Shown: positions 45,515 through 48,301 of the stretch, piece after piece
Layout: each line of letters starts with the position of its first letter
How positions within the stretch are numbered: position 1 is the first letter of the stretch
Source of the DNA: Nocardioides lijunqiniae
Lineage (GTDB): Bacteria; Actinomycetota; Actinomycetes; Propionibacteriales; Nocardioidaceae
Direction of reading: 5' to 3'
Assembly (NCBI RefSeq): GCF_015024225.1
Contig: NZ_JACJGM010000001.1
Coordinates: 372,001-436,000, forward strand
Length of the DNA: 64,000 nt
Notes under the pieces: model-generated
Databases searched by the model: none
Told to the model about the DNA's origin: nothing
What the model saw: only the letters and a program-made list of their open reading frames with translations
Program-made: the position numbers and the translations under genes

Positions 45515-46111
45515 ATGACGAGTCGGCCCCATCACCGTCCGATGCAGCGCGACGTCTCCTACTTCGACGAGATCGTCGGCGGAGCCGACCCGGCCCTGCT
45601 CACCGAGGCCGGCGACCGCGCCGCCGAGCTGCTCGTGCGCGGTGCGCGCGAGAGCGGCGACGACGCCGTGGCCGAGCGGCTGCTGCGCCTCGCTGACACC
45701 GAGGGCATCGAGTCGATCGCCGAGGTGTGGTCGGGCTCCCCGGCCGACTCGCTCGCCGGGTGCCTGTGGCGCCTCTACCTCCTGCGCTCCTGGGTCTACG
45801 CCGACTCCGCCGGGGTCGCCCGCGAGTTCGAGGCCGGACGAGCCCGCGCCCAGGTCGCCCGGGTGGTGGCCGGCGTCGCCGACCCGCCGGGCGTCGACGA
45901 GCTGCGCACCATGGTCGACGAGGTGCTGCGCGGCATCGCCGGCGGCGACTTCGCCGACGTGCTGTTCCGCGCGGCGGCCTTCGCCCGGGTGGTCGCGACC
46001 GGCCGCGCCATCCTCTCCGAGCCCTCTGACCAGCAGGTCCGCAGGATGCTGCTGCTCGCCGAGCAGCTGGAGGCGGCGGGTCACACCGAGCTCGTGCGTG
46101 GGCTGGCCTGA
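45515..46111 (+). CDS. Conserved helical protein of unknown function
   Basis: The 198-aa product is mostly helical, Ala/Arg/Glu-rich, without signal peptide or membrane helix (core GGDFADVLFRAAAFARVVATGRAIL). I do not recognise a domain. It starts 10 bp after hrpA, with a likely leaderless start of its own. Possibly a co-inherited partner of hrpA. Confidence 0.7.
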   Translation: MTSRPHHRPMQRDVSYFDEIVGGADPALLTEAGDRAAELLVRGARESGDDAVAERLLRLADTEGIESIAEVWSGSPADSLAGCLWRLYLLRSWVYADSAGVAREFEAGRARAQVARVVAGVADPPGVDELRTMVDEVLRGIAGGDFADVLFRAAAFARVVATGRAILSEPSDQQVRRMLLLAEQLEAAGHTELVRGLA

Positions 46112-46116
46112 CCCGC

Positions 46117-46122
46117 TAAAAT
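46117..46122 (+). promoter_or_regulatory. Strong -10 (TAAAAT) of candidate structured RNA
   Basis: TAAAAT is the most AT-rich and consensus-like -10 noted in the window. Seven nt later begins the 11-bp closing stem of the RNA; no start codon follows in a useful frame. Confidence 0.55.
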
Positions 46123-46128
46123 AGAGTC

Positions 46129-46217
46129 AGAGTGCGCCGGGTCGTGAAGCCCCGGGTCCCAAAATAAGCCGCTACGAGCGGCCACGCGCCGTGAGGTGCT
46201 CTTGGTCCGGCGCACTC
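46129..46217 (+). ncRNA. Candidate structured small RNA (unknown family)
   Basis: A perfect 11-bp stem joins GAGTGCGCCGG (46130-46140) to CCGGCGCACTC (46207-46217). The enclosed 66 nt hold an inner perfect 6-bp hairpin (GCCGCT-ACG-AGCGGC, 46168-46182) and an AT-rich CCCAAAATAAG segment left of it. With the -10 just upstream, the predicted product is about 90 nt. It is not a tRNA, SRP or tmRNA that I recognise, and no ORF occupies the 182-bp gap. There is no obvious U-tract. Confidence 0.5.
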
Positions 46218-46281
46218 GCCTACCTCAGGTCCTCTCGGGCCGACGTGGAGGCGCGCGAAGACCGGCTTGCGGGCCCGCGCC

Positions 46282-46287
46282 TAGGCT
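46282..46287 (+). promoter_or_regulatory. Leaderless -10 of PemK/MazF-like gene (TAGGCT)
   Basis: TAGGCT, CGGCGC, ATG 46294 reproduces the leaderless spacing, so this gene has a promoter separate from the RNA candidate. Confidence 0.55.
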
Positions 46288-46293
46288 CGGCGC

Positions 46294-46794
46294 ATGAGTG
46301 CCACCCGCCGCCTGCTGGCCGCCCTGCGCCCGATCCTGCGACCGCGCGGGCCGGTGAGCACCACCGTCCCCGCGGAAGACCGGGCCGGCGCCGACGGCGG
46401 CACCGGTGCCGAGGGGATCGGCTACGCACCCCGCGCCGACGGGCTGCCCGACCCGGGCGAGGTCGTGTGGGCCTGGGTGCCCTACGAGGAGGACGCGAGC
46501 CGGGGCAAGGACCGGCCGGCGCTGCTGATCGGACGGCGTGGCGGGCAGCTGCTGGGTCTGATGCTCACCAGCAAGGACCACGACCGCGACGCCCAGGACG
46601 AGGCGCGGCACGGCCGGCACTGGATGGACGTCGGGAGCGGCGGCTGGGACCGGGAGGGCCGCCCCAGCGAGGTGCGTCTCGACCGGCTGCTGGTCCTCGA
46701 CCCCTCCGCCGTACGCCGCGAGGGCGCGGCCCTGGACCGGCAGGTCTTCGACGCGGTCGTGTCGGCGGCCGCGCGCTTCCACCCCGGGGCGTGA
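46294..46794 (+). CDS. PemK/MazF-like toxin-fold protein
   Basis: The 166-aa protein carries a PemK/MazF-type barrel after a 50-residue basic N-terminal extension: PDPGEVVWAWVPYEED, GKDRPALLIGRRG, LMLTSKDHD, and RPSEVRLDRLLVLDPSAVRREG. MazF toxins are RNases, yet no antitoxin gene is adjacent and this subgroup is widespread in actinobacteria as solitary genes, so toxicity is not shown. Start supported by the leaderless -10. Confidence 0.75.
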   Translation: MSATRRLLAALRPILRPRGPVSTTVPAEDRAGADGGTGAEGIGYAPRADGLPDPGEVVWAWVPYEEDASRGKDRPALLIGRRGGQLLGLMLTSKDHDRDAQDEARHGRHWMDVGSGGWDREGRPSEVRLDRLLVLDPSAVRREGAALDRQVFDAVVSAAARFHPGA

Positions 46795-46900
46795 CATATC
46801 CGGGCACCGTCGTGGGGTGCTCGCCGGTAGGGTGGCGCCGGCGTGACCCGGCGGCCTCATCCAGGACGGACCGGCTCGTGGCGCGCGGACAAGGACCCAG

Positions 46901-48301
46901 ATGACGCACGGACTTCGCGGCGCACGACGCCCCCGACTGGCCGCCGTCGCGCTCGCGAGCGTGCTGGCGATGAGCCTGGGGCTCGCCGGCTGCGACGGCT
47001 CGGGCGATCCCGAGCCCAGCCCGGCGCCCACGTCCTCGAAGCCGCCGAAGCCGCCCAAGACCACCGAGCTCACCTTCGGCGTCTGGGGCGCCAAGGAGGA
47101 GGTCGCGGCCTACCAGGACCTCGTCGACACCTACAACGCCGAGACCGAGGGCAGCCGGATCGAGCTGATGACCTGGCCGACGCACGAGGCGTTCGCCAGC
47201 GGCCTGCGCTCCGGCGACCCGACCAAGGTGCCCGACCTCTACCTCGTCTCCCGCGGTGACGTCGCCACGCTGCGCGAGAAGGAGCTCAACCAGCCGCTGC
47301 TGGAGCTGCTCGACGAGCGGGGCGTCGACTACAGCGACGACTACGCCCGCGACGCGCTCCTGTCGTTCTCCGCCGACAACGAGCTGCAGTGCATGCCCTA
47401 CGGCATCTCGCCCATGGTCATGTACTACAACACCAAGCTGATCGACTTCGAGCGGATGCGGGCCCTCGACCTGCCCGCCCCCGACGACGACCTCCACGAG
47501 GGCTGGAACTTCGAGCAGTTCACGGCCGCGGCCAACTTCGCCACGCGACCGCGCCGCGGCACCCGCGGCGTCCACGTCGACCCGACCCTGCGCGGCCTGG
47601 CGCCGTTCATCTACTCCGGCGGCGGCGACCTCTTCGACGACGACGACGACCCCACGTCGCTCGCGCTCTCGGAGGACGACTCCCGCGAGGCGCTGACCCG
47701 CACCCTGGAGCTGCTGCGCGACGCCTCCGTGACGCTCACCGACGAGCAGCTCAGCCGGGCCAGCGCGCTGGAGTGGTTCAAGCGCGGCAAGCTCGGCATG
47801 ATCCCGGGCTTCCGCGAGCTGACGCCCGAGCTGCGTCAGGTGCCGGGGCTGGAGTTCGACGTGATGCCGATGCCCACGCTCGACGACGACGCCACGATCG
47901 GCGACATCACCGGCCTGTGCGTCTCCTCGGAGGCCGCGAGCATCGCCAAGGCGGCCGACTTCCTCGTCTACGTCGTCTCCCGCGAGTCGACCGCCCGCGT
48001 GGCCGCCGAGGGCTACCTCGCGCCGGCCAACCTGCCGGTCGCCGTCTCCGACGACTTCCTGCAGCCCGGCCAGATGCCGGAGCACGCCGGGGTCTTCACC
48101 GAGACCGTGCGGTCCATGGTGGTCCCGCCGCTGCTGGAGGACTGGCCCCAGCTGGAGCGCGCCGTCCGCTCGACGCTGCGGCTGATGCTCACGACCACCC
48201 TGCCCGACATCGAGGCGCTCACGACCCAGATCGACGAGCAGTCGCGCGAGGTGCTCGACCCCGAGCTGCCCTCGGATAGCCCGAGCCCCAGCGAGGAGTA
48301 G
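46901..48301 (+). CDS. Extracellular sugar-type solute-binding lipoprotein
   Basis: The 466-aa product has a lipoprotein signal with lipobox LGLAGC, then a family 1 solute-binding fold: ELTFGVWGAKEEVAAYQDLVDTYNAE, DLYLVSRGDVATL, MVMYYNTKLID, GIYS-like FIYSGGGDLFDDD, and GKLGMIPGFREL. It should bind a sugar outside the membrane and hand it to an ABC permease, but no permease or ATPase gene is adjacent. AAGGA lies upstream of ATG 46901. The gene abuts the end of rnd with no gap. Confidence 0.85.
   Translation: MTHGLRGARRPRLAAVALASVLAMSLGLAGCDGSGDPEPSPAPTSSKPPKPPKTTELTFGVWGAKEEVAAYQDLVDTYNAETEGSRIELMTWPTHEAFASGLRSGDPTKVPDLYLVSRGDVATLREKELNQPLLELLDERGVDYSDDYARDALLSFSADNELQCMPYGISPMVMYYNTKLIDFERMRALDLPAPDDDLHEGWNFEQFTAAANFATRPRRGTRGVHVDPTLRGLAPFIYSGGGDLFDDDDDPTSLALSEDDSREALTRTLELLRDASVTLTDEQLSRASALEWFKRGKLGMIPGFRELTPELRQVPGLEFDVMPMPTLDDDATIGDITGLCVSSEAASIAKAADFLVYVVSRESTARVAAEGYLAPANLPVAVSDDFLQPGQMPEHAGVFTETVRSMVVPPLLEDWPQLERAVRSTLRLMLTTTLPDIEALTTQIDEQSREVLDPELPSDSPSPSEE

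Follow-up and report, generated by a model that had tools for sequence, protein, structure and literature searches.

A structured small RNA conserved across the Actinomycetes, with a stress-type promoter motif in many lineages

We report here a structured RNA locus of Nocardioides lijunqiniae whose best reading is that of a member of a new actinomycete small RNA (sRNA) family. The locus lies within a 64,000-nucleotide stretch of contig NZ_JACJGM010000001.1, hereafter called the window, in which all unprefixed coordinates are counted. Genome comparison shows the predicted family to span the class Actinomycetes as well as plasmids of Rhodococcus and Gordonia.

Results

Architecture of the RNA locus

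The RNA core occupies positions 46129 to 46219 of the + strand, an extent given by matches to two covariance models (R1 and R2) and by the alignments A1 and A4, and not a transcript 3' end. It begins 17 nt past the stop codon of a 198-aa gene, named C0 here (45515 to 46111, +), which is the neighbor of the RNA in many families, and ends 74 nt ahead of the start of a PemK/MazF-like gene (46294 to 46794, +; PF02452, PemK_toxin, E 3.5e-9). The core is preceded by a -10 element, TAAAAT (46117 to 46122, +). An earlier note, made from the sequence of this DNA alone, had described an 11-bp perfect stem 7 nt past this box, and we recovered this stem (GAGTGCGCCGG, 46130 to 46140, paired with CCGGCGCACTC, 46207 to 46217). 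It is predicted to extend to 15 bp, giving the closing stem P1, whose 5' arm (46130 to 46144, +) rests on the fold, on covariation and on an arm-swap test in other copies, and whose 3' arm (46203 to 46217, +) rests on the fold and on covariation. The junction after P1 carries an invariant CCCCGG (46150 to 46155, +) and is followed by an AT-rich (A-rich) stretch, CAAAATAA (46160 to 46167, +), and by hairpin P2, GCCGCT-ACG-AGCGGC (46168 to 46182, +). These last two elements correspond to the AT-rich stretch and 6-bp hairpin of the earlier note, which had missed a second hairpin, P3, GCGCC-GTGA-GGTGC (46186 to 46199, +), closed by a GNRA tetraloop (GUGA). On the minus strand, P2 and a following TATTTT (46167 to 46183) form the sole terminator-like site between 45500 and 47000.

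The statement that this gap holds no ORF proved correct in that 46117 to 46217 encloses no ORF of 60 aa or more, but longer mechanical ORFs run into it, for example, 46191 to 46904. The downstream gene has a separate -10-like box, TAGGCT (46282 to 46287, +), placed 6 nt before its ATG, which fits the leaderless start that had been proposed for it.

The window copy scored 96.6 bits with the R1 model (E 1.3e-16 in its own genome) and 85.7 bits with R2. Folded on its own, the window sequence was only moderately unusual in energy (z -2.43, with 2 of 200 shuffles as good), so that the proof had to be comparative and relatives were needed.

The closing stem changes in sequence but stays paired

We collected a genus set of 55 distinct copies, including 2 from a sister family (L024 and L027), and aligned 51 of them, 2 from the sister family, as A1 (L006, L038, L042, and L051 were left out). 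In A1, no variation was seen in the core AGCCCCGGGT or in most of P2 and P3, while the closing stem drifted yet stayed paired. A second alignment, A4, comprised 78 class-wide copies; it was fitted to a covariance model, which favors pairing, and much of it, like all of A3, came from a pattern scan that required CCCCGGG. Standard pairs filled 92.9% of the A4 pair cells, compared to 76.9% after shuffling and 35 to 42% with the arms slid against each other. Each of the 15 closing-stem pairs showed two-sided changes in some copies, the number of cells with such changes was 349 versus 100.5 in shuffles, and the covariation score reached 0.442 versus 0.157. A weaker measure, the number of pairs with a two-sided change, gave 20 versus 17.8 and was equalled in 19 of 500 shuffles. 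The small structured RNA proposed in the earlier note is thus supported, and compensatory changes, whose absence the note had named among its grounds for refutation, are abundant among relatives.

We also compared stem arms without any alignment, by swapping them among 77 of the 78 copies (the window copy was excluded, as the script pattern for P3 missed it). Cognate arms paired with a mean energy of -28.9 kcal/mol, compared to -18.7 kcal/mol for swapped arms; the cognate partner ranked in the best 10% for 69 of the 77 copies and was the best of all for 31. In both alignments, G-U cells far outnumbered A-C cells (86 versus 9 in A1 and 128 versus 17 in A4), indicating that the + strand is the structured product.

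The CCCCGG motif was found in all 117 distinct copies from A1, A2, and A5 with aligned rows longer than 75 nt (rows of 75 nt or less were excluded), a count to be read with the fact that the models that found A2 and A5 reward CCCCGG. The five model pairs of P2 were invariant in the 51 A1 copies, and one pair changed from C-G to U-A in 16 of the 78 class-wide copies. In a second Streptomyces copy and in similar copies, P2 was replaced by a longer hairpin and both CCCCGG and P3 were kept. In most copies P3 took the form GCC-GNRA-GGC, with a GUGA, GAGA, or GCGA loop; copies of Actinomyces and Bifidobacterium type had GACA, GACU, or GUCA. The four C's of the motif were partly paired in predicted ensembles, with mean unpaired probabilities of 0.22 to 0.71, and CCCCGG was in part predicted to pair internally, either with the GG it contains or with the 3' arm. 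We rejected self-dimerization through CCCGGG as a property common to the RNAs, since CCCCGGA or CCCCGGT stands in its place in several families.

The RNA is found throughout the class Actinomycetes

At the DNA level, a search of 58 genomes gave a strong match in each of the 36 others from the same genus (E 3.7e-35 to 4.5e-15), 82 to 94% identical over local alignments of 65 to 124 nt. Strong matches also came from 8 members of a second family within the order (E 1.2e-21 to 1.3e-13). Another genome matched at E 3.1e-7 and the other 12 at E 1.4e-4 or weaker; in one of these 12 (G037), a covariance model later found copies. In comparison with the RNA, the neighboring C0 protein was 56 to 88% identical, although this comparison of amino acids with nucleotides is rough.

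Two covariance models, whose E-values are rough, were then used on a larger scale; surveys of more than 40 genomes ran with stricter filters, and absence there is no proof. At E <= 1, the A1-derived model had matches in 169 of the 296 genomes of the class, representing 63 of 114 genera, and for 7 of the 169 E lay above 0.001. At E <= 0.01, a broader model detected the RNA in 47 of the 396 genomes of the phylum (17 of 245 genera), and all listed phylum matches fell in the class of the window. The distribution of the RNA was patchy in a mycobacteria-like family (f7), with 8 of 20 listed genomes matched. Scanning named genomes of bacteria and archaea for a sequence pattern returned at least 120 stretches. 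Among the 80 of these that were listed, 79 titles name taxa that we take from general knowledge to be actinomycetes, and one reads "Actinomycetota bacterium." The taxa among the listed matches include Bifidobacterium, Actinomyces, Arthrobacter, Cellulomonas, Microbacterium, Mycobacterium, Nocardia, Gordonia, Geodermatophilus, and Streptomyces. All of the 80 listed loci except L132 also matched a covariance model at E <= 0.025.

Promoter motifs differ between lineages

In the genus set, promoters, neighbors, hairpins, and spacings were counted in the 53 of 55 copies that passed the script pattern, and flanks were scanned for GGAA[T/C]-N17-19-GTT, TANNNT, and GTTANNNT. The -10 box assigned to the RNA by the earlier note was borne out: TANNNT stood just upstream of the RNA in all 53 copies (51 from the genus and 2 from the sister family), compared to 8.2 expected from shuffles, and it ended a median of 6 nt before the stem. 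GGAA[T/C]-N17-19-GTT, the stress-type motif, was present in 8 of the 53 copies (0.18% of shuffles) and absent from the window copy itself. In the genus of the window, promoter motifs thus support a housekeeping-type -10 box for the main RNA copy.

Class-wide, 41 of 100 copies had the stress-type motif, compared to 0.44% of base shuffles, which served as the promoter controls throughout. In a set of 98 class-wide copies, from which L165 (flank too short) and the window copy were left out, 45 carried the motif when spacers of 17 to 19 nt were allowed and 53 did not; related Streptomyces are numerous among these sets. A further 40 copies yielded it in 24 cases. The spacer was 18 nt in 31 of 43 measured motifs, 19 nt in 11, and 17 nt in 1, within a pattern that allowed 17 to 19 nt only, and the distances from GTT to the stem are underestimates, as the fold could extend the stem outward. 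The motif was rarer beside C0 (6 of 35 copies) than elsewhere (39 of 63), with a Fisher P value of 1.9e-5 that ignores relatedness.

The consensus given for SigH of Mycobacterium tuberculosis is (G/T)GGAA(C/T)A-16-(C/G)GTT, and that for SigR of Streptomyces coelicolor is GGGAAT(G/C)-16-(C/G)GTTG (both as quoted in PMC3489674). GGAA[T/C]-N17-19-GTT matches this published SigH/SigR thiol-stress consensus, although closely related extracytoplasmic function (ECF) sigma factors are indistinguishable by motif. In many lineages and on plasmids, promoter motifs thus support an RNA gene that is probably read by SigH/SigR-type sigma factors (thiol-oxidative and heat stress).

On the 3' side, 23 of 25 Streptomyces/Kitasatospora copies had a strong hairpin (z below -2) after the RNA, as did 7 of 17 copies of mycobacteria/Nocardia type and 17 of 57 others. 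No downstream terminator hairpin was evident in the genus set, in which 4 of 53 copies had a strong one and the mean z was -0.12.

Neighboring genes vary, and the RNA behaves as its own unit

C0 was present in 146 of 147 genus genomes, the genome of the window included. At E <= 0.001, neither Pfam nor NCBIfam gave a match to it, and up to E 1 the matches were scattered and weak. It is predicted to be all helical, and its structural model (mean pLDDT, 82.3) had no PDB fold match at E <= 0.001. C0 was found in 14 of 24 RNA-bearing genomes tested and, by comparison of coordinates, lay no more than 200 bp from the RNA in 10 of these 14; among 98 class-wide copies, 35 had C0 within 1.5 kb. It was undetected in the RNA-bearing Streptomyces-like (f22, 0 of 3) and mycobacteria-like (0 of 5) genomes and therefore cannot be a universal partner of the RNA. 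In 4 of 53 genus-set copies, the strand of the RNA was flipped relative to C0, which argues for the RNA as its own unit. In many families C0 remains adjacent to the RNA, including where the RNA strand is flipped.

The neighbors vary by lineage, with C0 found in Arthrobacter-, Microbacterium-, and Nocardioides-type lineages. Synteny with the PemK-like gene, suggested as a check in the earlier note, held in part: such a gene was present in the fetched flank of 34 of 53 genus-set copies, but no shared cluster of downstream genes emerged from the class-wide neighbor comparison. In Streptomyces, one neighbor is helD-like (NCBIfam HelR/HelD models, E down to 3e-110, under the model cutoffs), and other neighbors are presumably malic enzyme and HU genes. 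We take the mycobacterial neighbor to be a WhiB6-like gene, for which no NCBIfam match was obtained. Taken together, promoter motifs, covariation, and strand flips, along with the lineage-dependent neighbors and the strong hairpins after the Streptomyces/Kitasatospora copies, point to an independent short unit of conserved structure, as is general for bacterial sRNAs.

Plasmid-borne and additional copies

The window RNA, used as a query, matched 2 plasmid records, while a mycobacterial-type RNA query matched 64 records (57 from Rhodococcus and 7 from Gordonia) at 79 places, with up to 5 places per record; 40 of the 64 records were typed as mobilizable. From these records, 14 regions (L308 to L321) were analyzed. 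In all 14, the RNA lay outside the listed genes, of which the table is incomplete, and matched a covariance model; 13 copies carried the stress-type promoter motif. The fetched flanks contained a DNA ligase gene in 8 of the 14 regions and an Lsr2 gene in 6. The mycobacterial-type query had no match among phage records. A Streptomyces query gave a weak match of 51 nt (80% identity) in a 5.7-kb record from human feces entitled "Bacteriophage sp." (MT838127.1:72-122).

Several chromosomes also carried more than one copy. One genome of the same order had tandem copies about 180 bp apart (L106:1818-1908 and 2001-2089). The second Streptomyces copies L279, L280, L281, and L298 were 117 to 118 nt long with an enlarged P2, and all four had the stress-type motif; the similar enlarged copies L282 to L284 were without it. 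Among second copies in relatives (L286 to L289, L291, and L111), the motif was present in five of six and absent from L111. In the genome of the window, the R1 model gave further candidates at E 0.23 and 5.5. The latter scored 22.1 bits with R2 (E 0.0041 over 70 kb) but was rejected: neither CCCCGG nor P2 is present in it, and the sequence is presumably kinase coding. We therefore count one copy in this genome.

Comparison with known RNAs

The Rfam check suggested in the earlier note returned no match at the curated threshold for the window RNA, and no family of Rfam 15 reached its curated threshold on any RNA copy scanned. Three short scans with the limit relaxed to E 10 yielded nothing beyond weak matches, all far below threshold. 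No description of the RNA family was found in the literature searched, with subscription papers, preprints, and supplements outside the search.

The RNA resembles 6C RNA (B11, RF01066), a short actinomycete RNA with conserved cytosines that acts on mRNAs, among them panD and dnaB, and which provides a precedent for a C-rich actinomycete sRNA (PMC8628891). However, 6C is described as a pair of stem-loops that each contain at least six C's (PMC8388888), whereas the window RNA has a single CCCCGG in a multiloop closed by a long stem. The 6C model (threshold, 47 bits) had no match in the window and scored 21.4 bits at the 3' flank of one Streptomyces copy, on the same strand. Ms1 and 6S RNA are likewise structured actinomycete RNAs of wide distribution, but their lengths are given as about 300 and 180 nt, with a central bubble (PMC9130861), whereas the window core measures about 90 nt and has two hairpins; neither the size nor the central bubble was found in its length and fold. 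OxyS and RsaE/RoxS are sRNAs under redox-stress control, and RsaE/RoxS uses C-rich motifs; both types come from different phyla, and the likeness drawn here is one of description.

One copy of the RNA in Streptomyces sits between the helD-like gene and what we take to be a malic enzyme gene. In S. coelicolor, SCO2952 is HelD and SCO2951 is malic enzyme (PMC8655204 and PMC7494193), and scr2952 is reported as an sRNA that is expressed, with conservation in more than half of the Streptomyces tested (PMC8388888). The S. coelicolor copy may be the catalogued scr2952. However, scr2952 is stated to be in Rfam (PMC8388888), and the Streptomyces locus has no Rfam match at threshold, so that the identity is unproven. 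The accession RF02826, considered as that of Scr2952, proved to be Scr6925.

Discussion

We give about even credence to the reading that this new family consists of independent + strand sRNA genes, linked to SigH/SigR in many lineages, that act in trans through the C-rich motif. Genome comparison shows the RNA gene itself, predicted to yield a core RNA of roughly 90 nt in which the long, drifting but paired stem clamps a small multiloop displaying CCCCGG and two conserved hairpins. The RNA may pair through its C-rich motif with G-rich ribosome-binding regions of target mRNAs and so adjust translation under redox or protein-damage stress, the stem and the GNRA hairpin serving stability or protein contact.

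Since the hairpins are conserved and the motif is partly paired in predicted ensembles, a protein-binding role also has to be weighed, and we regard it as a substantial prospect, though one short of even. The RNA would then be a ribonucleoprotein (RNP) scaffold, a decoy, or a sequestering RNA, comparable to 6S, Ms1, or CsrB, with CCCCGG and the GNRA hairpin as contacts. This would account for the finding that invariance sits in structured parts, with CCCCGG in all 117 copies and P3 mostly of the form GCC-GNRA-GGC, and for the exchange of P2 against a longer hairpin with CCCCGG and P3 retained; the sequence conservation of both hairpins fits protein recognition as well as it fits antisense action. 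Where a lineage has C0, the protein encoded by this adjacent gene is a candidate partner, in keeping with its proximity (within 1.5 kb in 35 of 98 copies and within 200 bp in 10 of 14 C0-bearing genomes), but its absence from the RNA-bearing Streptomyces- and mycobacteria-like genomes shows that such a partnership is not universal, and its predicted all-helical fold is without a PDB match at E <= 0.001. A broader picture, which we consider rather unlikely, makes this undescribed class-wide RNA a standing component of the SigH/SigR thiol-stress response that would act as an RNP through its CCCCGG/GNRA core. Extra copies would be kept on large plasmids behind the same promoter, hence used by mobile elements, and one branch would have been rewired to housekeeping transcription beside the orphan C0.

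The proximity of the core to both genes in the window (17 nt past the C0 stop and 74 nt before the PemK start) would also suit a cis element, either a leader of the PemK-like gene or a 3' untranslated region or terminator of C0, and P2 followed by TATTTT looks like a terminator of the minus strand. We judge such readings very improbable: the RNA has promoter motifs of its own, its orientation to C0 is reversed in 4 of 53 copies, the neighbor genes are different in Streptomyces, mycobacteria, and plasmids, and the G-U versus A-C counts speak against a minus-strand product. It is even harder to see in this locus a diverged housekeeping RNA, whether the signal recognition particle (SRP) RNA, a Ro60-bound Y RNA, 6S/Ms1, or 6C. 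SRP, Y, and 6C RNAs are of similar length and Y RNA has a long closing stem, but no Rfam family reached its curated threshold on any copy scanned, and in three short scans at E values up to 10 nothing came near one. The bacterial small SRP RNA model (RF00169) did not match at the RNA locus and found the SRP RNA of this genome elsewhere (G000:C60:6613-6703, 61.2 bits), and Ro60/TROVE, the mark of a Y RNA, was found in none of 8 same-genus genomes and in 2 of 12 tested overall.

Few sRNAs are known to span the Actinomycetes. The core described here is recognizable from Bifidobacterium to Streptomyces, linked by promoter motifs to SigH/SigR in many lineages, and borne on plasmids of Rhodococcus and Gordonia, and the family thus offers a concrete handle on posttranscriptional control of oxidative stress in actinomycetes. 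In mycobacteria, an equivalent of Hfq is described as still being sought (PMC8628891). In a survey of S. avermitilis, 2 of 139 sRNA units are given as matching Rfam, one being Ms_IGR-5 and the other 6C (PMC8780764). In one region of our collection, a copy of the RNA is followed after about 100 nt by an Ms_IGR-5 sRNA of Rfam (L105:2193-2383), on the opposite strand.
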